From Aquabacter spiritensis (lineage in GTDB: Bacteria > Pseudomonadota > Alphaproteobacteria > Rhizobiales > Xanthobacteraceae), in NCBI RefSeq assembly GCF_004346185.1, contig NZ_SMAI01000018.1:1-64000 (forward strand): a stretch of DNA of 64,000 nt, given 5' to 3'. Below the pieces are notes generated by a model. It was not told the DNA's origin, searched no databases, and was given only the letters and a program-made list of their open reading frames with translations. The translations under genes and the position numbers were made by a program. How positions within the stretch are numbered: position 1 is the first letter of the stretch; each line of letters opens with the position of its first letter. Shown here piece by piece: positions 55,635 through 64,000 of the stretch.

Positions 55635-55834
55635 GCCGCAAGCGTCCGCGTCGAAGAGAATCCTCGCCTCGACAGCTCCACGTCGGCCTGCGCTCCGGCT
55701 GAAATCCGGCTCGTGCATCCGCGCCGCGAACAGAAATGCGCCCGGCCGCGTTGACCCGACTGGCGGCTCCGTCCACCCCGCGTTCGCGCACGGCCGGCTT
55801 TGCGCATCCGGGGGGCCGCCCGAGGAGGTCGGAT

Positions 55835-56869
55835 ATGCAGCTCACCGGCTTGAGCCTTTGGGTCATTGTGCCGATCTTTCTGGCGGCGGCCGCCATCGTG
55901 TGGGGCGCGGGGACGCGTTTGACCGGCTATCTCGACGGGATCGCCACGCTTACCGGCATCGGCCACGCCTTTGCCGGCATGCTGCTGCTCGGCGGCATCA
56001 CGTCCTTGCCGGAAGTGGCCTCGGTGGCGACGGCGTCCGTGGCTGGGAACGCGCCGCTCGCCACCAACAATCTGCTCGGCAGCGTCGCGATCAATGTCGT
56101 CCTCATCGCCTTTGCGGACGTCCTGATGGGGCGCGAGGCCCTGACCTCCGTGGTGCCGACCTCGACCACGATCTTGCAGGGCGCGCTGGGCATGATCGCG
56201 CTCGGAATCCTGGTGCTCGCCATCCTGACGGGCGACGTCGCGATCGGCTGGATCGGTCTCTGGCCGGTCGTGCTGGCCGCCTATTGCGTCTTCGCCTTCC
56301 GGCTCTCTTCGCTATATTCCAAGCGGCGGCCCTGGCAGGCGGTCAAGGCGGCGCCACTCTCTCCCGTCCGGGATGAGGATCTGTCGGGGAGTTCGCTCCA
56401 GTCGCTGATCGCGAAGACCTCTCTTGCCGGGGTCGCCATTCTGATCGCCGGCTTCTTCCTGGCTCTGTCCGGCGAGGCGATCGCGGAAAAGACCGGCCTC
56501 GGTTCCGGCTTGGTGGGGCTGGTTCTGGTCGGGTTTGCCACCTCCTTGCCGGAGGTCAGTTCGATCGCCGCGGCGGTGCGGCTCAAGCGCTATGAAATGG
56601 CGCTGGGCGATATTTTCGGCACCAATCTCCTGACGATCGGCCTTCTCGTCATGGCGGACGGGCTTTATACCGAGGGTCCGGTCCTGGTCCATGCCGGCAA
56701 GTTCGAGACGATCGCCGCTTTGATCGGCCTCTTGCTCACCGGCATTTTCCTGGTCGGTCTGATCGAACGCGGCAACCGCTCGGTGGCACGCCTCGGTTAT
56801 GATTCCCTCGCGGCCCTCTGCGTGTTTTTCGCAGGCCTCGCGCTTCTGGCCCTCACGCCGGCCTCGTGA
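55835..56869 (+). CDS. Na+/Ca2+ exchanger family protein
   Basis: This 344-residue membrane protein of the CaCA family has about ten helices in two inverted halves. Each half has an alpha-repeat: GGITSLPEVASVATASV with GSVAINVV (first) and GFATSLPEVSSIAAAV with GDIFGTNLL (second). The Glu in each SLPE and the adjacent Asn/Asp sites bind the ions. GAGGAGG fixes the ATG at 55835. It probably extrudes calcium or exchanges cations; selectivity cannot be told. Confidence 0.88.
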   Translation: MQLTGLSLWVIVPIFLAAAAIVWGAGTRLTGYLDGIATLTGIGHAFAGMLLLGGITSLPEVASVATASVAGNAPLATNNLLGSVAINVVLIAFADVLMGREALTSVVPTSTTILQGALGMIALGILVLAILTGDVAIGWIGLWPVVLAAYCVFAFRLSSLYSKRRPWQAVKAAPLSPVRDEDLSGSSLQSLIAKTSLAGVAILIAGFFLALSGEAIAEKTGLGSGLVGLVLVGFATSLPEVSSIAAAVRLKRYEMALGDIFGTNLLTIGLLVMADGLYTEGPVLVHAGKFETIAALIGLLLTGIFLVGLIERGNRSVARLGYDSLAALCVFFAGLALLALTPAS

Positions 56870-56884
56870 CGGGACCGCGGTGCC

Positions 56885-57844
56885 TCATTTCAGACCATCC
56901 AGATAGGCTGCCAAGGCCCGCAATTGCTCCCCGGTGAAGACGCCGAACGAGGGCATCTTGCTGGCGGGCTTCAGGTGCTGAGTGGAGGCGATCCAGCCCG
57001 CGAGGGTGCCCCGATTGGTCGGGAACAGGCCCGCGCCGATGGTGCGCCGGCTGCCGACATGCGTGAGATCGGGGCCGAGCGTGCCGGCTGCCGACGTGCC
57101 GCGCACCGTATGGCAGGCGCCGCAGCCGGATTCCAGGAACAGGTCCCGTCCCTGGGCCCGGAGCGTGGTCACGGGCTGGCGCGCATCCTCGCGCTGGCCG
57201 CGCATCCATGCTTCGAACGCCTCCGGCGTGTGCGCGACGACGTCGAATGCCATCAGCGCATGGGCGGAGCCGCAGAATTCGGCGCATTGCCCGCGATAGA
57301 TCCCGGGCCGCTCGGCCTCCAGCAGGAGCCGGTTCGTATGCCCGGGAATCATGTCCAGCTTGCCGGCGAGGCTCGGGATCCAGAAACTGTGAATCACGTC
57401 GGCGGACGTCAGGAGGAAACGGACCGGACGGCCGACCGGGACATGGATCTCGTTCGCCGTGACCAGCGGCGGCGTCTCGGCGGTGGCGGCGGGATAGTGG
57501 ACACGCCACCAGAACTGCTCCCCCGTGACGTGGATTTCGAGCGGTTCGGTGCCGGGCGCGCGCACCAGGTCGCGCGTCAGGACCAGCCCATAGACCAGCA
57601 GCGCTGTCAGGACGACGAAGGGAAAGATGATCCCGCCGCCGATCACCATACGATGGTCCGAGAGAAAGGCCCGGCGCTCCTGCGGCGCGAACAGCGCGAA
57701 CGCGACGCAGGCCATCACGATCAGAAAGATGATCGCGGCACCCGCGAACATGATCCAGGTCAGCGTCGCGATGCCGGCGGCCGCGGAGCCGGCCGGCGCG
57801 AGCGCCGATTGAACACCTGAGAACACCGCATCCAGTCCGGACAT
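56885..57844 (-). CDS. Cytochrome c oxidase subunit II with fused cytochrome c
   Basis: This 319-residue protein has two membrane helices (about 26-51, 68-90) and a CuA domain with aromatic motif GEQFWWRVHYP. The CuA ligands are His152, Cys187, Glu189, Cys191, His195 and Met198 (CAEFCGSAHALM). A C-terminal cytochrome c domain has Cys241, Cys244 and His245 (CGACH) and axial Met297. This caa3-type layout passes electrons from a cytochrome to an oxidase core. It is the last gene of the operon, and no subunit I or III gene is in the window, so it must use a core encoded elsewhere or have another partner. Confidence 0.93.
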   Translation of the reverse strand: MSGLDAVFSGVQSALAPAGSAAAGIATLTWIMFAGAAIIFLIVMACVAFALFAPQERRAFLSDHRMVIGGGIIFPFVVLTALLVYGLVLTRDLVRAPGTEPLEIHVTGEQFWWRVHYPAATAETPPLVTANEIHVPVGRPVRFLLTSADVIHSFWIPSLAGKLDMIPGHTNRLLLEAERPGIYRGQCAEFCGSAHALMAFDVVAHTPEAFEAWMRGQREDARQPVTTLRAQGRDLFLESGCGACHTVRGTSAAGTLGPDLTHVGSRRTIGAGLFPTNRGTLAGWIASTQHLKPASKMPSFGVFTGEQLRALAAYLDGLK

Positions 57845-57853
57845 TCTGCTCCC

Positions 57854-58708
57854 TCAGGGCTGCCGCGGCGCCGGGGCGCCAAGCGGACCGCCGGGGCCAT
57901 CGGCGCCGGGCAGGCGACCCGCCGTCCAGGGCGTCCCGCTTGTGCCCACGGCGTGCGCCGGACGGAAAGCCCCGGCATCGGGCGTGATCTCGCGCCCGCG
58001 CACATTGGCGAGGAACACCGACACCGCCTGGATCTGCTCGTCCGTCATCGCCTGCGCGATCAGCGCCATGACGTTTTGAGGGTCGCCGCCACGCACGCCC
58101 CGTTTCCATTGCTGGAGCTGGAAAGCGAGATAGGCGGCGGACTGCCCGGCGATGAAGGGATAGAAGGGCGCCTTGCCGACCCCATTCTCGCCGTGACAGC
58201 CGGCACAGGCCGGCACGCCCTGCTCCGGAAGTCCGCGGGCCGAGATCGCGCCGCCGATCTGCAGCAGGCCGACATCGGCCGGGGCCGGGGGCGCGGCGGG
58301 CGCGGCGTTCGCGGCGGCGTAATAGGTCGAGACGGCGATCAATTCGTCTTCGGCCAGGGCCCGGGCGACGGGCGCCATGACCGGATTCGGCCGGAGGCCG
58401 CCGGCATAATCCTGGAGCGTCTTGTAGAGATACCAAGCCGACTGGTCGGCCAACCGCGGAAAAGCACCGCTGCTGTCCCCCGCGCCGTCGGCGCCGTGGC
58501 AACGCGCGCAAGCGACCGCATCCTGATGACGCCCGCCGGTGATCGCAATCTGACGACCGTGCACCAAATCCGCGCGCCGGTCGGCCCGGTCGGCAGGTGT
58601 CTGCGCGGCAGGCGTCGTCGGCCCGGGGAGGGCGGTTTGGGATACGGCCGGACCGGCCATAATCAGGGCCGTGCCGAGCGCCAGCAGGGGCAGGATCGCC
58701 CGCTTCAC
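57854..58708 (-). CDS. Diheme c4-type cytochrome c
   Basis: This 284-residue periplasmic protein has a signal peptide (cleavage near 24, AVS then Q) and two class I heme sites in tandem: CARCHGADGAGD and CAGCHGENGVGK. Each is followed by a Met-containing stretch (NPVMAPVA, QNVMALIA), the cytochrome c4 pattern. The GTG start at 58708 overlaps the GMC stop as GTGA. The last 60 or so residues are Gly/Pro-rich. It probably carries electrons from the GMC enzyme to subunit II. Confidence 0.9.
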   Translation of the reverse strand: MKRAILPLLALGTALIMAGPAVSQTALPGPTTPAAQTPADRADRRADLVHGRQIAITGGRHQDAVACARCHGADGAGDSSGAFPRLADQSAWYLYKTLQDYAGGLRPNPVMAPVARALAEDELIAVSTYYAAANAAPAAPPAPADVGLLQIGGAISARGLPEQGVPACAGCHGENGVGKAPFYPFIAGQSAAYLAFQLQQWKRGVRGGDPQNVMALIAQAMTDEQIQAVSVFLANVRGREITPDAGAFRPAHAVGTSGTPWTAGRLPGADGPGGPLGAPAPRQP

Positions 58709-60474
58709 GACGGCACCAGCGGGCGGGGGTTTCGCAAATACTGCTTGAGCATGGCGTCCAGCGCCCAATAGGTCAGGGCGCCGACGGTTCCGGTCGGGTT
58801 GTAGCCGGCATTTTGCGGAAACACACCGGCGCCCATGACCCAGAGATTGTGCATGTCCCAGGATTGCAAATACCGATTGACGACACTCGTCTTCGGATCG
58901 GTGCCCATGATGGTCCCGCCGGTATTGTGCGTCGTCTGGTAGGGAACTATGCTGTAATGGTCGTCGAGCCAGCCGACCGAGACCGACTTGCCGCCCATCG
59001 CCTGCGCGACGCGCCAAGCCTTCTCCGTCACGTGGCGCGACATCAGCCGGTCATTATAGGGGAAATCGAAGGTGACCATGCCCAGCGGCTGGCCGAAGGC
59101 GTCGGTATAGGAGGGGTCGAGGCCGATATAATTGTTCGGGTGGGGCACGGACGAGCCGTGAATCGTCAGCGAGACCGTGCTGTTATAATTCTCGGCCACC
59201 GCCTGCTTCCAGGCCCGTCCCCAGCGCGGCGTCCCGTCCGGGACCGGGTGGAAATTGATGGGACGTCCGCTGGTCTGATAGGCGGCGATATAGGCCCCGC
59301 CGACGAAGCCGAGCCCGGAATGGTCGAAGCTGCCATTGTTGACGTCGTCGATCGCGGTGCCGAGCGCGCCGGCCCCCATGAACGGATTGATGCGCTTGGA
59401 GCCGGCATAGAATACATTTATGCCGCTCATCGTCTGATAGGTATAATTGCGGCCGACGGTGCCGGAACGGGTCCGCGGATCATAGGGCTCGCCGATGCCG
59501 GACTGCAGCATCAGGACCGCATTGTGGTGTGCAAAGGCGCACAGCACGACCATGGCCGCCGGCTGGAACACCTCCCGGCCGCGCGCATCGACATAGGTGA
59601 CGCCGGTGGCGACATTGGCCCCTCGATCCCACTCCACGCGCAGCACATAGGACCGCGTGCGCAGCTCGAAATTCTTGTTGGCGAGGGCGGCCGGCAGGAT
59701 GGCGACCTGCGCGCTGGCCTTGGCGAAGTGCTCGCACCCGTAGGTTTCGCAGAAGCCACAATACATGCAGGGCTTCAGCTCCAATCCGTAGGGATTGGTG
59801 TAGTGCCGGGTCGAGTTCGAGGAGGGGACCGGAAAGGGGTGATGGCCGAGTTCGGCCGCCGCTGTGCCGAAGAGATGGCCGGAATAGGCCTGCTTCATCG
59901 GCGGATTGGGATAAGGTGCGCTGCGGGCGCCCTCGAACGGGTTGCCGCCCGATTGGACCTCGCCCCGTAGATTGCCGGCCGTCCCTCCGGTGCCGCAGAT
60001 CCTCTCAAAATAGTCGTAGAAGGGTTCGAGGTCCTCATAGCTGAGGCCCCAGTCCTGGATCGTCACGTCCTCGGCGAGAAAGTCGCGTCCGTAGCGGTCG
60101 TTCACCCACGAGCGCAGCGCGAACCATTCGGGCTGAAACCGCCAGGTCTGGCCGTTCCAATGAACCATCGCGCCGCCCACCCCCTCGCCGGGGAGGAACG
60201 AGCCGAGCTGGCGCATCGGCAGGGCCCGCTGGCCGGGAAAATTCCGGAAGCTCAGCGTCTGCACCCGTGGGTCCTGCATCAGCCCGTGCCGAACCGAATA
60301 TTTCAACTCGTCGTGCATGGTCGGCGACTGGAAGTCGGGGATCGTCTGGCGCATCTGGCCGCGCTCGAGCGCAACCACGGTGTGGCCGGCCTCGGCCAGT
60401 TCCTTGCCGAGGATCGCGGCGGTCATGCCGCCGCCGACCAAGGCGACATCGACGGGGGGCATCCGGACAGCCAT
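58705..60474 (-). CDS. GMC-family FAD dehydrogenase with probable Fe-S motif
   Basis: This 589-residue flavoenzyme has FAD-binding VALVGGGMTAAILGKELAEAG at its start, here truncated to the core. The C-terminal catalytic His/Asn pair lies in YQTTHNTGG and GYNPTGTVGA. Four cysteines at about 236, 239, 242 and 247 (CMYCGFCETYGC) fit the Fe-S site of FAD-glucose, fructose or gluconate dehydrogenases, which pass electrons to cytochromes. It resembles the gluconate 2-dehydrogenase large subunit; the real substrate (sugar, aldonate or alcohol) is unknown. It lacks its own signal and is probably exported with the Tat small subunit. An ATG start at 60474 has a GAGGG site; a GTG at 60486 would overlap the previous stop. 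Confidence 0.9.
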   Translation of the reverse strand: MAVRMPPVDVALVGGGMTAAILGKELAEAGHTVVALERGQMRQTIPDFQSPTMHDELKYSVRHGLMQDPRVQTLSFRNFPGQRALPMRQLGSFLPGEGVGGAMVHWNGQTWRFQPEWFALRSWVNDRYGRDFLAEDVTIQDWGLSYEDLEPFYDYFERICGTGGTAGNLRGEVQSGGNPFEGARSAPYPNPPMKQAYSGHLFGTAAAELGHHPFPVPSSNSTRHYTNPYGLELKPCMYCGFCETYGCEHFAKASAQVAILPAALANKNFELRTRSYVLRVEWDRGANVATGVTYVDARGREVFQPAAMVVLCAFAHHNAVLMLQSGIGEPYDPRTRSGTVGRNYTYQTMSGINVFYAGSKRINPFMGAGALGTAIDDVNNGSFDHSGLGFVGGAYIAAYQTSGRPINFHPVPDGTPRWGRAWKQAVAENYNSTVSLTIHGSSVPHPNNYIGLDPSYTDAFGQPLGMVTFDFPYNDRLMSRHVTEKAWRVAQAMGGKSVSVGWLDDHYSIVPYQTTHNTGGTIMGTDPKTSVVNRYLQSWDMHNLWVMGAGVFPQNAGYNPTGTVGALTYWALDAMLKQYLRNPRPLVPS

Positions 60475-60482
60475 GGCGACCC

Positions 60483-61289
60483 TCACGGGTGGTCGGTGAG
60501 GTGGGCGTGGCGCGCGTCCTCGTTCGCCATGCTGATCGGTTCGCGGCGGTACGCGTAATCATAGGCATCGACGAGTTCGAGATATTGCGCATAGGCACCG
60601 GGAAAGCCCACCATGCGCCACCCGACCATGTCGCGATTGCCGCCATAAGCGGGGTCGGCAAAGAAGCCTTCGATCGTATTGGCGAGCAGAGTCTCGAAAA
60701 AGACCGGCGCCGGCAAAGAGGGCAGAACGATGCGTGCGGTCTCCAGGCCGGAGAGCACATCATCCCTCTCGGCCTCGCCCAAGTCCCAGAATTCGCGGCC
60801 GGCATTCGCCGCCCGGACATGGGCGCGGATTTCCTCGATGCCGATCTGGTAGAGCTGCGCCGGCGTGAAGCGCAATTGGTAGCCCTGCTCGGGCGGCGCG
60901 TCGGCAAGCCATGGCCCGTCGAGATACATGCGGTCTCCGGCGCCGAAACCGCTCGCGAGCTGCCGATCGATATAAGTCAGCACCCCGGCTGCCGCGGCGC
61001 CGGCAAAGGTCGCATCCGGCGGGATCAGGCGGTCCACCGCCGCGGTCACGAAAGCCGCTTCCGGGTCGTTGAAGAAGAACAACATGCCCGTGCCGGAGGG
61101 CGCGGCGGCCGCTGCGTTCGAGGCGGGGGAAGCGGGGGCTGGAGCCGCGGGTTGGGCGGCGGCCTGCGATCCGCGGCAGATCGGAAAGCCGCTCTCGTCA
61201 CAGGTGCCGATGGCGACGGCCGCGCCGACTCCCGCGACGCTCGCGGCGCCGGTCTTCAGAAGATGTCGGCGGGAAACGGGTCGGGTCAT
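60483..61289 (-). CDS. Gluconate 2-dehydrogenase subunit 3-type protein (Tat-exported)
   Basis: This 268-residue protein begins with a twin-arginine signal (VSRRHLLKTG, then an Ala/Gly-rich hydrophobic stretch). The mature part, after a low-complexity Ala/Pro linker, has the gamma-subunit family features FFNDPEAAFVTAAVDRLIPPD (partial) and YLDGPW. Such subunits hitch-hike the folded FAD subunit through the Tat pore and form the enzyme complex. GGGAGA precedes the ATG at 61289, which overlaps the upstream stop (ATGA). Confidence 0.88.
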   Translation of the reverse strand: MTRPVSRRHLLKTGAASVAGVGAAVAIGTCDESGFPICRGSQAAAQPAAPAPASPASNAAAAAPSGTGMLFFFNDPEAAFVTAAVDRLIPPDATFAGAAAAGVLTYIDRQLASGFGAGDRMYLDGPWLADAPPEQGYQLRFTPAQLYQIGIEEIRAHVRAANAGREFWDLGEAERDDVLSGLETARIVLPSLPAPVFFETLLANTIEGFFADPAYGGNRDMVGWRMVGFPGAYAQYLELVDAYDYAYRREPISMANEDARHAHLTDHP

Positions 61290-61648
61290 GGGCGATCTCC
61301 CTTCGCTGACGCGCGCAGGACGGTCTGAAGACAGGGCTGGTGGGCCGCGGACCCCTGATAGGCGTCGCACAATGCGGCCTGCGGAAGCGGCGGCACCCGC
61401 GTCTGGCCGGGGGGCACGGTCGGCGGGCTCTTGGGCCCGCTATAGCCGGTGGTGGTCCCGTTGTTCGTGCCGGCGCCGACATGCGTCAGCCGCGCGACGC
61501 CGTCGCCGCCGGCTTGCGATCCGGATGCGCCGCGCGACTGCGTCACCTCGTCGGACACGTTCGCCTGTGCCCAGGCCGGAGCCGCCGCGAGCACGCACAT
61601 CCACGCGCCGAGCGCGAAGCGGGCAAGCCGAAGGGAAAGATGCGTCAT
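61286..61648 (-). CDS. Small exported protein in the GMC dehydrogenase operon
   Basis: This 120-residue protein has a signal peptide (hydrophobic 8-25, cleavage near 27 after AWA). The mature region is Gly/Thr/Ser/Pro-rich with two cysteines near the C-terminus (LCDAYQ and PCLQTV) and no heme motif. It overlaps both neighbours by 4 bases (ATGA), so it is made together with the cytochromes and dehydrogenase. I recognise no family; a chaperone or spacer role is possible but unproven. Confidence 0.75.
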   Translation of the reverse strand: MTHLSLRLARFALGAWMCVLAAAPAWAQANVSDEVTQSRGASGSQAGGDGVARLTHVGAGTNNGTTTGYSGPKSPPTVPPGQTRVPPLPQAALCDAYQGSAAHQPCLQTVLRASAKGDRP

Positions 61649-62457
61649 CGGCTGGGGCTCCCGTATCCGCCGGGTGGGGCCGATGCCGGAACCGGCGGCA
61701 ACGTGCGGATGTCCCGCGTCGCCGTGCCCGGCGCGGCCGGAGCGAGGGCGGCGTAATAGGCAGCAACCCCCTCAATGTCGAATTCGGTCATCCGTCGGGC
61801 GATGCTTTCCATCACCGCCAAAAAATCGCCCTTGCGCGCGCCGGTCTTCCAGGCGCGGAGCTGGGCCTCGATATAGGCCGCATGCTGTCCCGCCAGCGCG
61901 GGATAGAAGGGAGGAAGACCGCGCCCTGCCGGGCCGTGGCAATTGACACAGCCTTGGATGCCGCGCGCTGCCGAACCCACCGCCGCCAGGTGCGCGCCAT
62001 GTTGGAGCCGTTCGGGATCCAGCGTCGGGCGCAAGGCCGCGCGCACCGGGATCTGCACCGCGAAATAGATCGACACGTCCCGCATCTGCTGGTCGTCGAG
62101 GGCGCGGGCGATGGGCGACATGACCACGTTTTCGCGCGCGCCCGACGCGTAATCCCTCAAGGCTCGATAGAGATATTCAGGGCTTTGCCCGAACAGGCTG
62201 GGAAATACGGCGGCAGCGTCTCCCGCACCCTGCAAGCCATGGCAGGTGAAGCAGGCTCCGCCGGGTGCGCCGATCCCAACCGCGCCGACGACGACCGCAC
62301 GGCCGCGCGACACCTCCTCGGCGCGCACTGCCCCTGGCTGCCAGACGGCCGCGCCCCCGGACTGTGCGCGACCCGGGCCGCCGCCGAGCACAACAAGCGT
62401 CGCACAGACCAGAGCGCGGCACATCATGCCAGAGGCGGGAGTCAGGTTTCGCGACAT
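61645..62457 (-). CDS. Diheme c4-type cytochrome c, first gene of the operon
   Basis: This 270-residue exported protein has a signal peptide with cleavage near 32 (GRA then Q). It has two heme sites, CFTCHGLQGAGD and CVNCHGPAGRG, with Met ligands in ENVVMSPIA and FLAVMESIA. The layout matches the c4 protein at 57854-58708, and the two look like paralogues. GGGAGAG precedes the ATG at 62457; the frame is open further upstream without signal-like sequence. Confidence 0.9.
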   Translation of the reverse strand: MSRNLTPASGMMCRALVCATLVVLGGGPGRAQSGGAAVWQPGAVRAEEVSRGRAVVVGAVGIGAPGGACFTCHGLQGAGDAAAVFPSLFGQSPEYLYRALRDYASGARENVVMSPIARALDDQQMRDVSIYFAVQIPVRAALRPTLDPERLQHGAHLAAVGSAARGIQGCVNCHGPAGRGLPPFYPALAGQHAAYIEAQLRAWKTGARKGDFLAVMESIARRMTEFDIEGVAAYYAALAPAAPGTATRDIRTLPPVPASAPPGGYGSPSR

Positions 62458-62724
62458 CCTGGCTCTCCCTGTGAACCCGCACGGGTTGGGTGAGTTTGGC
62501 TCGGGACGCACCGCGCCATCGCCCAGGTAACGCCGCACCTTGGAAAAATGTTTCTTGCCGGGTCCTAAAAGTGCCGTCTGACGGAGCGTTCTCCTGAGGC
62601 CGGATCTCCTGGTCCCCTTCTCGGAAGGCACCGGCGCTCACCGGTTCGGCCGGGGGTCGAGGGAACATCCGGACCGGCCCGGGCATTGCACTTCGAGCAG
62701 TGCGCGACCTTGAAAGCCGACGCC
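62458..62724. other. Divergent intergenic region of the cytochrome genes
   Basis: About 267 bases separate the minus-strand operon from the plus-strand cytochrome. A small inverted repeat (CCGTCTGACGG, about 62573-62583) is present, but no convincing -35/-10 pair or known operator is seen on either strand. Confidence 0.35.
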
Positions 62725-63114
62725 GTGTCCGACGCCATCTCAAGCCACGTCCTCCGCATCATAGCGATCGGCCTCGGTGCTCTGCTGTCGGCAGGATGCG
62801 ATCGCGTCGTGCCGGCTGGACGGCAGGTGGCGGACGGCGACCCTGCGCGTGGCCATGTCCTCGTTCGGTCTTATGGATGTCAGACGTGCCATGCGATTCC
62901 CGGCGTCGCGGGCGTCAAAGGCGTCGTCGGACCGCCGCTCGACCGGTTCGCTCGGCGGGCCATGATTGCCGGCCTGGTGCCGAACGAGCCCGCGGTCCTG
63001 CTGCGCTGGCTGGAAAATCCGCCGCAGATCTCCCCCCGCACCGCGATGCCGGACATGGGCGTGTCACGCGCGGATGCACGGGACATCGCCGCCTATCTCT
63101 ACAGTCTGGAATAG
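62725..63114 (+). CDS. Lipoprotein cytochrome c (class I, monoheme)
   Basis: This is about 129 residues. A hydrophobic stretch ends in LLSAGC, a lipobox with the lipidated Cys near residue 25. The heme site CQTCH follows, with an axial Met in RTAMPDMGVS, as in class I cytochromes. The lipid anchor would hold it at the membrane as a relay near an oxidase. The start is uncertain: GTG at 62725 gives a compact signal, and a TTG at 62686 would add 13 residues. It is divergent from the GMC operon and probably functions with it. Confidence 0.82.
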   Translation: MSDAISSHVLRIIAIGLGALLSAGCDRVVPAGRQVADGDPARGHVLVRSYGCQTCHAIPGVAGVKGVVGPPLDRFARRAMIAGLVPNEPAVLLRWLENPPQISPRTAMPDMGVSRADARDIAAYLYSLE

Positions 63115-63183
63115 GAGGGGCACGACGCCGCATCGCACGACGGTGCATCTCGCGGACCGAAGGCGCCGGCGCCCCCCGGGGCG

Positions 63184-63207
63184 GCAGGAGGGCCGTGGCC
63201 CTCCTGC
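63184..63207. terminator. Hairpin between convergent genes
   Basis: GCAGGAGGGCC (63184-63194) and GGCCCTCCTGC (63197-63207) form an 11-base stem between the cytochrome gene and the PRC-barrel gene. There is no T-run. It may be a weak bidirectional terminator. Confidence 0.35.
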
Positions 63208-63219
63208 GCTGGAATCCCG

Positions 63220-64000
63220 TCAGCCGGCGTGTTCGCGCCAGAAGGTGTCGACGCGCTGGCGGTCCTGAGTGGACTGGTTCGGATCGGAGAAGCGGTCCGG
63301 ATCCACCGTCGGCGCCTGATCGATGACGTCTTCTGACACGTTCAGAACGAAGGTGTTCAGGCCGGACGTGGCCCGCACCGACGACCACGGAACCGCCACC
63401 ATATCCTCGCCGAGGCCGAGAATGCCCCCGCTGGCGACGATCAGATAGCGGATGTCGCCATTGCCGGGATCGAGAACGATATCCTCGACCGTGCCGAGCT
63501 GCTCGTCTTTCGGATTGCGGACTTCCGTCGCGGTCACGTTGGCGAGATTGATGAGACCGGTCTGCACTTCGCTCACCGGCCGGGCGCCGACCAGACGCTG
63601 CTGACGCCAGTTCGAGACCTCGTTGGCGTTCACGCCGGCCTGCTTCAGCTCGTTGGAATAGCCGTTATAGACTTGGCGGAGTTCGTCCAGAACGGTTGCG
63701 CAGGCCTGTTCATCGCCCCGATGCGCGAGGACGTTCACGGCCGCCCGCAGGGTGCGGATCTGATAGGGCGCCGAGCGGATGCCCCAGCCGTCTCCCGCCC
63801 ACATCTGGTTGGTGTTGGGGGTGGCCGTCTGCGCGGTGGTGCCGCCCCGAGTCGGCTGTGTCGTTGCGCGATCATCGGCCCCGCGATTGGCCTCGGCGCG
63901 GGGGTCGGTCGCGCGGGTTTCCGCAGCGCGGCGATCCCCTCCGCGATTATCTGCATTCCTGTTGGCATCGGTCCCGTAGCCGGGTGTTCCCCAGCCCGCG
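63220..64000 (-). CDS. PRC-barrel domain protein, 5' end beyond the window
   Basis: The frame is open to the right edge, so the start is missing; an internal ATG at 63804 is probably not the start. The visible part of about 259 residues begins with a hydrophilic Asn/Arg/Thr/Ala-rich segment. It then has a helical region with a Cys (QACATVLDEL) and a PRC-barrel (TGLINLANVTATEV through DPGNGDIRYLIVASGG and VPWSSVRA, about 140-215 of the visible part). Secreted PRC-barrel proteins of this type are frequent in Rhizobiales and often linked to stress responses. Confidence 0.83.
   Translation of the reverse strand, partial: AGWGTPGYGTDANRNADNRGGDRRAAETRATDPRAEANRGADDRATTQPTRGGTTAQTATPNTNQMWAGDGWGIRSAPYQIRTLRAAVNVLAHRGDEQACATVLDELRQVYNGYSNELKQAGVNANEVSNWRQQRLVGARPVSEVQTGLINLANVTATEVRNPKDEQLGTVEDIVLDPGNGDIRYLIVASGGILGLGEDMVAVPWSSVRATSGLNTFVLNVSEDVIDQAPTVDPDRFSDPNQSTQDRQRVDTFWREHAG

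Follow-up and report, generated by a model that had tools for sequence, protein, structure and literature searches.

The question raised by this locus is whether a bacterial dehydrogenase encoded together with the electron-entry subunit of a cytochrome oxidase may pass its electrons to an oxidase of its own, and where the rest of that oxidase is encoded. The locus lies on the minus strand at 56885-62457 of the window, that is, the whole 64,000-nucleotide stretch analysed here (positions 1 to 64,000 of contig NZ_SMAI01000018.1, assembly GCF_004346185.1, Aquabacter spiritensis; this contig is called C18 below, and the genome comprises 5.16 Mb in 51 contigs). It contains six unbroken genes, encoding a diheme cytochrome, a small exported protein, a small subunit of the twin-arginine translocation (Tat) type, a catalytic subunit of the GMC family of flavin adenine dinucleotide (FAD) dehydrogenases, a second diheme cytochrome and subunit II of a caa3-type cytochrome c oxidase. 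An earlier note on this DNA had described a six-gene operon joined nearly base to base, and its families, order and junctions are confirmed; it had also called the oxidation chain complete, a description that does not hold for this locus because no subunit I is encoded here. As far as can be judged from sequences, the operon is with good probability the dehydrogenase half, together with the electron-entry subunit, of a dedicated respiratory module that would bypass the quinones.

Oxidase genes beside the dehydrogenase in relatives

The proposal of the earlier note that the dehydrogenase is wired to its own terminal-oxidase entry subunit is supported, at the level of prediction, by the subunit II and fused subunit I/III genes found together in relatives and by an orphan I/III gene on contig C6 of the same genome. 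The check for conserved copies that include subunit I revealed II and I/III beside the dehydrogenase in 13 of the 34 GMC loci of a scan of named genomes (within 10 kb), and also in the genomes G092, G233, G294 and G597. The 13 coupled named loci belong to Microvirga (nine loci), Bauldia, Tranquillimonas, Chelativorans and a metagenome-assembled genome (MAG) of the Hydrogenophilales, and all nine Microvirga loci carry the full block of diheme cytochrome, small protein, Gluconate_2-dh3 small subunit, GMC, second diheme cytochrome, monoheme cytochrome, II, I/III and the CtaG factor. Elsewhere the block varies: no match for the small protein was found in Bauldia and none for CtaG in Chelativorans and G092, and the module of the Hydrogenophilales MAG has one diheme cytochrome and no small protein. 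A fourteenth locus with a GMC of at least 65% identity (L071) lies on a 3.8-kb contig, and its genome holds II (60%) and I/III (69%) on another contig.

At the order level, the GMC was matched in 52 of 199 genomes at 1e-30, with at least 51% identity in 15 of the 199, the window's genome included. Regions were fetched for all 16 further matches of at least 51% identity; two of them contain the module's II and I/III (G092 and G158, the latter appearing, from its identical rows, to be the Bauldia MAG L069 again), and four have another oxidase within the 20-kb stretch, namely a pair like that on contig C1 of the present genome (L049, L050) or aa3-like genes (L052, L058). The family level gave matches in 103 of 391 genomes at 1e-150, from which 18 regions, mostly top matches, were fetched; the module is present, as a divergent pair, in the two nearest, G233 and G294 (62 and 60%), and absent from the remaining 16, one of which (L152) has an aa3-like oxidase. 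Two further genomes of 385 were matched at the class level (1e-222) and both regions were fetched, G597 (58%) being coupled and G648 (57%) uncoupled. No GMC match was obtained at 1e-150 in the four same-genus genomes listed; one of these, the incomplete genome G292, has module-type II (54%) and I/III (64%) side by side at a contig start. Plasmid records matched in 118 of 72,556 cases, all below 60% identity. Regions were fetched for four of them; a C1-like coxB with subunit I lies a few genes off in Rhizobium sp. Q54, the other copies being uncoupled, and the Thermus plasmid copy has no annotated cytochrome adjoining the GMC. In a Verrucomicrobia MAG (L079), a GMC of the same clade is accompanied by another kind of COX1, by an SCO1 gene and by a COX2 protein that lacks the heme-c domain.

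Diheme and triheme loci

The association with oxidase genes follows the type of cytochrome. The comparison covers 74 deduplicated GMC loci, the window included, which are best matches and not a random sample; each locus was entered once, by its first GMC match of more than 40% identity and 400 residues, and L045 was dropped as lying on the same contig as L069. Twenty-two loci are of a diheme (c4) type, 31 of a triheme type and 21 of neither, and a heme-c subunit II with I/III stands beside the dehydrogenase in 17/22, 0/31 and 0/21 of them, respectively, the 17 coupled loci representing 16 genomes (Microvirga arabica twice). Of the five diheme-type loci outside the 17, the window has subunit II at the locus and the predicted I/III partner on C6, L079 has another oxidase, L071 and L074 are on short contigs, and L073 has full flanks and no oxidase. 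A triheme open reading frame downstream of the GMC, 404-416 residues long in three annotated plasmid examples, characterizes the 31 triheme loci and is not present in the window, where the cytochrome in that position contains two hemes. The 18 COX-linked of 70 rows require 2 changes on the GMC tree, against a mean of 16.2 after shuffling, and none of 500 shuffles was as low; in its labels L079 was scored as uncoupled (short subunit II match), as were L071, L074 and L075 (contig ends), and the GMC, subunit II and I/III trees all keep L045 and L069 as identical rows.

Subunit II and its predicted partner genes

Subunit II of the window matched PF00116 (76.9 bits), PF00034 (44.4 bits) and the CoxB model TIGR02866 (175.1; cut-off 147.7), and the best solved match of its profile is subunit II of the T. 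thermophilus caa3 oxidase (2yev_B, 9.4e-64), over positions 8-308 of 308 and both domains. Residues H152, C187, E189, C191, H195 and M198, which are taken to be the CuA ligands, are invariant in the three aligned module copies; the C-terminal heme c site consists of C241, C244, H245 and M297, with the one CxxCH at 241.

Four COX1 and three COX2 genes were found genome-wide. Contig C9 has COX1 and COX2 together (aa3), C1 a fused I/III accompanied by a subunit II of its own that shows no CxxCH, and C3 a COX1 with no COX2, which was read by eye as cbb3 because FixH- and FixI-like frames follow it. The subunit II of C18 has no COX1 nearby, and the fused I/III of C6 has no COX2 nearby. The latter is a protein of 843 residues (L009:9948-12479) with the ligand motifs GHPEVY, WVHHMF and VAHLHYVL; the gene of a 111-residue protein follows, with a one-base overlap between its start and the I/III stop. 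This protein matched no Pfam family and resembles the small membrane proteins encoded downstream of I/III in relatives (tblastn about 30-32%, E down to 3.8e-7), and next to it comes, in convergent orientation, a gene for the CtaG factor (PF09678, 160.3 bits). Judged by their sequences, I/III, small membrane protein and CtaG of C6 are the distal half of the module, split off in this genome; subunits I and II are not encoded together here and are together in relatives. Subunit II lies at 57 kb of the 108-kb contig C18 and the I/III at 167 kb of the 275-kb contig C6. An assembly artefact as the cause of the split was rejected, since both genes are well inside their contigs.

The pairing of the two pieces was examined in quick trees, with Shimodaira-Hasegawa-like approximate likelihood ratio test (SH-aLRT) support and long branches flagged, and by pairwise identities. 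The I/III tree places C6 among the module copies (support 100) and the fused I/III of C1 in another clade (99); in the tree of subunit II, the window's protein clusters with those of G233/G294 (96). Identities of II and I/III are closely correlated (r 0.95; 105 pairs from 15 adjacent modules). The C6 I/III is 51-72% identical to the module copies and lies within about two standard deviations of the regression line; that of C1 is 40-45% identical and falls about four standard deviations below the line for the Microvirga copies and 1.5 to 2 below it for the most distant ones. A physical pairing of the C18 subunit II with the C6 I/III is predicted.

As a separate observation on the oxidase, whose K- and D-channel residues have recognized roles in this enzyme class, the K-channel lysine position (GxKxFxW) is occupied by Gln throughout the 22 fused I/III rows compared, which include one identical pair and both the module and the C1 type, by Ser in L070 and by Lys in four unfused subunits I; the fused rows retain the D-channel Asp and the HPEV Glu.

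The dehydrogenase and its putative carriers

The catalytic subunit matched PF00732 and PF05199, and its structural model (predicted local distance difference test, pLDDT, 88.9; predicted template modelling score, pTM, 0.92) has as its nearest solved folds the catalytic subunits of the FAD-dependent glucose dehydrogenase (FAD-GDH) of B. cepacia and of fructose dehydrogenase (Foldseek 6.8e-41; Z 37.5), followed by pyranose 2-oxidases and C-glycoside oxidases (Z about 28-29). As the nearest folds act on sugars or glycosides, a sugar-type substrate class is suggested; cholesterol oxidases rank after them at Z 27.5, so that the fold by itself does not settle the class, and the modelled enzyme probably acts on a sugar- or polyol-like substrate. 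His516 and Asn559, of catalytic type, are present in 29 of 30 aligned rows, His105, aligned with a His of fructose dehydrogenase, is conserved in 29 of 30, and the cysteines C236/C239/C242/C247 (CxxCxxCxxxxC) are invariant in 30 of 30. These may bind an iron-sulfur (Fe-S) cluster, the presence and the type of which are both putative. One GMC relative of 53% identity (L077:10001-11761) has other residues at His105, His516 and Asn559 and retains the four cysteines.

The small subunit matched PF13618 (95.2 bits) and has a twin-arginine motif recognized by eye; no solved relative was found by sequence (best E 0.11), and its link to gluconate 2-dehydrogenase is presumed from the family name. Dehydrogenases of this kind are exported by a hitchhiker route through the Tat subunit. 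The GMC has no signal peptide of its own and, by analogy, would be exported together with the small subunit, as in the hitchhiker complex reported for the B. cepacia enzyme in PMC6719666.

Both diheme proteins matched PF00034 and have two CxxCH motifs each; they are non-identical copies (46% identity over 169 residues), the first being called c4-like because of this identity to the second. The search against solved structures covered the second, which matched cytochrome c4 chains (6q2u, 1etp and, with cbb3, 8snh; phmmer 4.5e-24 and 1.4e-21), the top match being a 526-residue 'Cytochrome C' (5lo9, 2.3e-27). The monoheme cytochrome encoded just outside the operon span is a seventh gene of the module; it is divergent in the window and in relatives lies between a diheme gene and subunit II. 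The small exported protein matched no Pfam or NCBIfam family and has a low-complexity stretch, conserved VGAG and TTGxSG motifs and a conserved C-terminal cysteine pair; its AlphaFold model has a mean pLDDT of 56, reaching nearly 80 in the C-terminal helices only. It was found in 12 loci, the window included, and no tblastn match at 1e-4 occurs beside the Bauldia, Tranquillimonas, Hydrogenophilales, G233, G294 and G597 copies, which suggests that the chain can do without it.

A route joining these parts can be proposed. The GMC, exported with the Tat small subunit, would oxidize a substrate in the periplasm, probably a sugar- or polyol-like compound, and electrons would pass from FAD to the Fe-S cluster, to the two c4-type dihemes and the monoheme cytochrome in a carrier order that is itself conjectural, then into subunit II through its heme c and CuA, and finally to O2 at the caa3-type oxidase, with I/III, small membrane protein and CtaG supplied from contig C6, or from the same cluster in relatives. 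The triheme subunit of ordinary three-subunit enzymes hands electrons to quinone, and c4 cytochromes plus a dedicated oxidase would here take the place of this subunit of the fructose- and glucose-dehydrogenase-like enzymes. In passages of PMC6472588, no statement was found that quinone accepts the electrons of fructose or gluconate dehydrogenase. Since no triheme subunit is encoded and the c-type path to CuA is unbroken, quinone bypass is the simplest reading; the bypass, the carrier order and direct contact between the carriers are nonetheless putative. A further-reaching version, considered rather doubtful, would have GMC, c4 cytochromes and caa3 oxidase form one physical complex that uses O2 to convert the substrate into product and water and builds up a proton gradient, all without quinone, as a parallel for an organic compound to iron oxidation by the rus chain, with the triheme exchanged for c4, heme-copper oxidases recruited more than once (the caa3 of the module and, in the Verrucomicrobia MAG, one whose subunit II lacks heme c) and the small exported protein acting as a tether.

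Evidence against the module and alternative explanations

Several observations weigh against a dedicated module. Its pieces lie on two contigs in this genome, so that their co-regulation is conjectural, and the diheme cytochromes could serve aa3 or cbb3 oxidases too. In Tranquillimonas alkanivorans, which contributes one of the 17 coupled loci, the adjacent subunit I (L070:3440-4648) is without its N-terminal half, the match beginning at residue 243, and has AHPWV instead of GHPEV, longer copies being present elsewhere in that genome. The contrast of 17/22 with 0/31 (Fisher 8e-10) ignores relatedness and concerns loci chosen as best matches; the linkage of GMC and oxidase is the result of one or a few evolutionary events. 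L073 of Noviherbaspirillum, with full flanks, has no oxidase within 10 kb, caa3-like genes being found elsewhere in its genome. Some other COX gene is present in the stretch of five of the 31 triheme loci, as C1-like II and I/III (L049, L050, L172) or an aa3-like oxidase (L058, L152), and in L052 among the 21 others; oxidase proximity is thus not confined to the diheme form. The C6 I/III is closer to the Microvirga copies (0.69-0.72) than expected from the line (0.60-0.64), by about two standard deviations, which, together with the grouping of subunit II with G233/G294, points to a mosaic module, and the I/III of G597 has the C1 query as its best match (50%). Separate histories are also apparent in the dehydrogenase, which is 78-82% identical to those of Microvirga, Chelativorans and G092, whereas subunit II goes down to 46-59% (in Chelativorans and G092, II and I/III are at 46-53% and the dehydrogenase at 78-80%); the reverse holds for G294 (GMC 60%, subunit II 68%). 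That halves with partly separate histories have yet been kept together argues for function rather than mere inheritance.

The same pattern bears on the explanation, regarded as unlikely, that this is an ordinary quinone-linked dehydrogenase of the fructose/gluconate type, with subunit II placed next to it fortuitously or as an addition of general use. GMC and small subunit are indeed members of the quinone-linked dehydrogenase superfamily, and the triheme form, with annotated plasmid examples, outnumbers each other class of relative examined (31 of 74 loci); however, the triheme subunit is absent here, its place being taken by c4 dihemes, oxidase genes accompany the dehydrogenase across several gene orders and lineages, and the linkage persists in Chelativorans and G092 although II and I/III have diverged so far. 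Chance adjacency of the oxidase genes was rejected on the GMC-tree shuffles and the 74-locus count. A different objection accepts the oxidase and disputes its partner: the C18 subunit II may pair with the C1 or C9 oxidase, or act alone as a CuA/heme-c electron store, the C6 I/III belonging elsewhere. Complete oxidases such as those of C1 and C9 could in principle exchange subunit II, and C18 and C6 are separate contigs with neither gene near an end. This is nevertheless distinctly improbable, as C1 and C9 own a subunit II each and the C6 I/III has none, the C6 genes repeat the distal half of the module (although CtaG is convergent here), the tree and identity pattern fits C6 better than C1 to the C18 subunit II, and module-type II and I/III are adjacent in G292 of the same genus. 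Very improbable, finally, is a protective system of an O2- or peroxide-related stress island, in which the dehydrogenase only supplies electrons for O2 scavenging. PRC-barrel neighbours (window, L044 and a Roseivivax plasmid), a Cu/Zn superoxide dismutase (SOD) and DUF2254 near L060 and a SOD-family gene in Rhizobium Q54 would suit it, but such neighbours differ between loci and lie outside the conserved block (parts of L066-L069 were not covered), and in 13 of 15 modules (exceptions L146, L147) the dehydrogenase is closer to the window's than II or I/III are, a better conservation that points to a fixed substrate.

Gene arrangement and neighbours

Four-base overlaps join the first diheme and small exported protein genes (61648-61645), the latter and the small subunit gene (61289-61286), and the GMC and second diheme genes (58708-58705). 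The small subunit and GMC genes overlap by four bases if the GTG start is used and are 8 bases apart with the ATG at 60474, and 9 bases separate the second diheme gene from subunit II. No sigma-70-like promoter was found in 56500-63300 (shuffles 0.8); the six terminator-like matches in the same scan (shuffles 3.0) are every one within a gene.

Table 1. Genes of the operon and adjoining features in the window
Feature	Position	Strand	Remarks
Diheme cytochrome 1	61645-62457	-	CxxCH at residues 69 and 170; Sec-type signal by eye; c4-like
Small exported protein	61286-61648	-	Sec-type signal by eye
Tat-type small subunit, Gluconate_2-dh3 family (PF13618)	60483-61289	-	Twin-arginine motif SRRHLLK
GMC-family FAD dehydrogenase, catalytic subunit	58705-60474	-	Alternative start GTG 60486
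Diheme cytochrome 2, c4 family	57854-58708	-	GTG start; Sec-type signal by eye
caa3-type cytochrome c oxidase subunit II	56885-57844	-	CuA and C-terminal heme c
Monoheme cytochrome c, lipoprotein by eye	62686-63114	+	Likely start GTG 62725; lipobox LSAGC
Na/Ca exchanger-family gene	55736-56869	+	Possible start 55835; convergent with subunit II
PRC-barrel gene	63220-63999		

A Na/Ca exchanger-family gene is found near the module in seven of the 22 diheme-type loci (window, L061, L062, L063, L068, L146, L147) and, at 1e-20, in 0 of the 31 triheme and 0 of the 21 other loci; it stands at differing ends and in differing orientations, and the module-side copy is in pieces in L062 and L063. PRC-barrel genes recur beside coupled and uncoupled copies (the window, L044:16974-18071 and L169:6117-6875), and SOD, DUF2254 and VTT-domain genes lie near the Microvirga copy L060. 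The neighbouring genes gave no recurring hint of the substrate (parts of L066-L069 not being covered).

Comparison with known systems and implications

The GMC fold, four-cysteine cluster, Tat small subunit and signal-less catalytic subunit are shared with fructose dehydrogenase of Gluconobacter japonicus, the B. cepacia FAD-GDH (BcGDH) and further three-subunit GMC dehydrogenases, presumably including gluconate 2-dehydrogenase, and the window GMC has a His at the place of BcGDH His105, a residue described in PMC6719666 as having continuous density to FAD. The cysteine spacing differs from the CC-x4-C-x3-C given there for BcGDH, and the PF13618 domain of the window's small subunit contains no cysteine, unlike BcGDH with its gamma-alpha disulfide (PMC6719666). 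Three-subunit GMC dehydrogenases have a triheme cytochrome, instead of which two dihemes, a monoheme cytochrome and a caa3 oxidase are found here. The oxidase resembles caa3 enzymes (T. thermophilus 2yev; proteobacterial caa3/CoxMNOP-like) in the heme c fused to the CuA subunit II, the fused I/III and CtaG (PF09678), and differs from them in being tied to one dehydrogenase, in being split over two contigs here and in the Gln at the K-channel lysine position. Its subunit II has one c-type heme, compared with the two attributed to CoxM of Pseudomonas KF707 in PMC5492768. The usual cytochrome c4 differs from the two non-identical copies within a dehydrogenase operon seen here.

A further parallel is the rus operon of Acidithiobacillus ferrooxidans (cyc2-cyc1-hyp-coxBACD-rus), which, according to PMC2621215, encodes an oxidoreductase together with c-type cytochromes and a dedicated aa3 oxidase, proteins believed to assemble into a supercomplex. 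In the relatives, as in rus, a single operon spans the route from the substrate oxidoreductase through cytochromes to the oxidase, the window reaching only up to subunit II; in contrast, the substrate is oxidized by a flavoprotein for an organic-type substrate and not by outer-membrane Cyc2 with rusticyanin, no counterpart of which was found among the operon genes by Pfam or NCBIfam. By descent of the substrate-oxidizing part, the two are not one system. No GMC dehydrogenase with a dedicated caa3 oxidase was found in the literature, a search of open-licence papers only and therefore weak evidence of absence; PMC6515984 reports one Bradyrhizobium GMC protein lowered under microoxia, and a link to the present clade could not be made. 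Each part is already known; the exchange of triheme for c4 and caa3, the combination and the split were not found described in the open-licence literature searched.

If the dedicated module is real, one dehydrogenase clade would have left the common quinone pool and would own a proton-pumping oxidase, providing a testable case of respiratory-chain rewiring by carrier swap and oxidase recruitment, for which cultured test organisms are at hand (Microvirga, Chelativorans). FAD-GDH and fructose dehydrogenase are already used in biosensors and fuel cells, and a ready-made electron chain from sugar to oxygen would be of interest for both.

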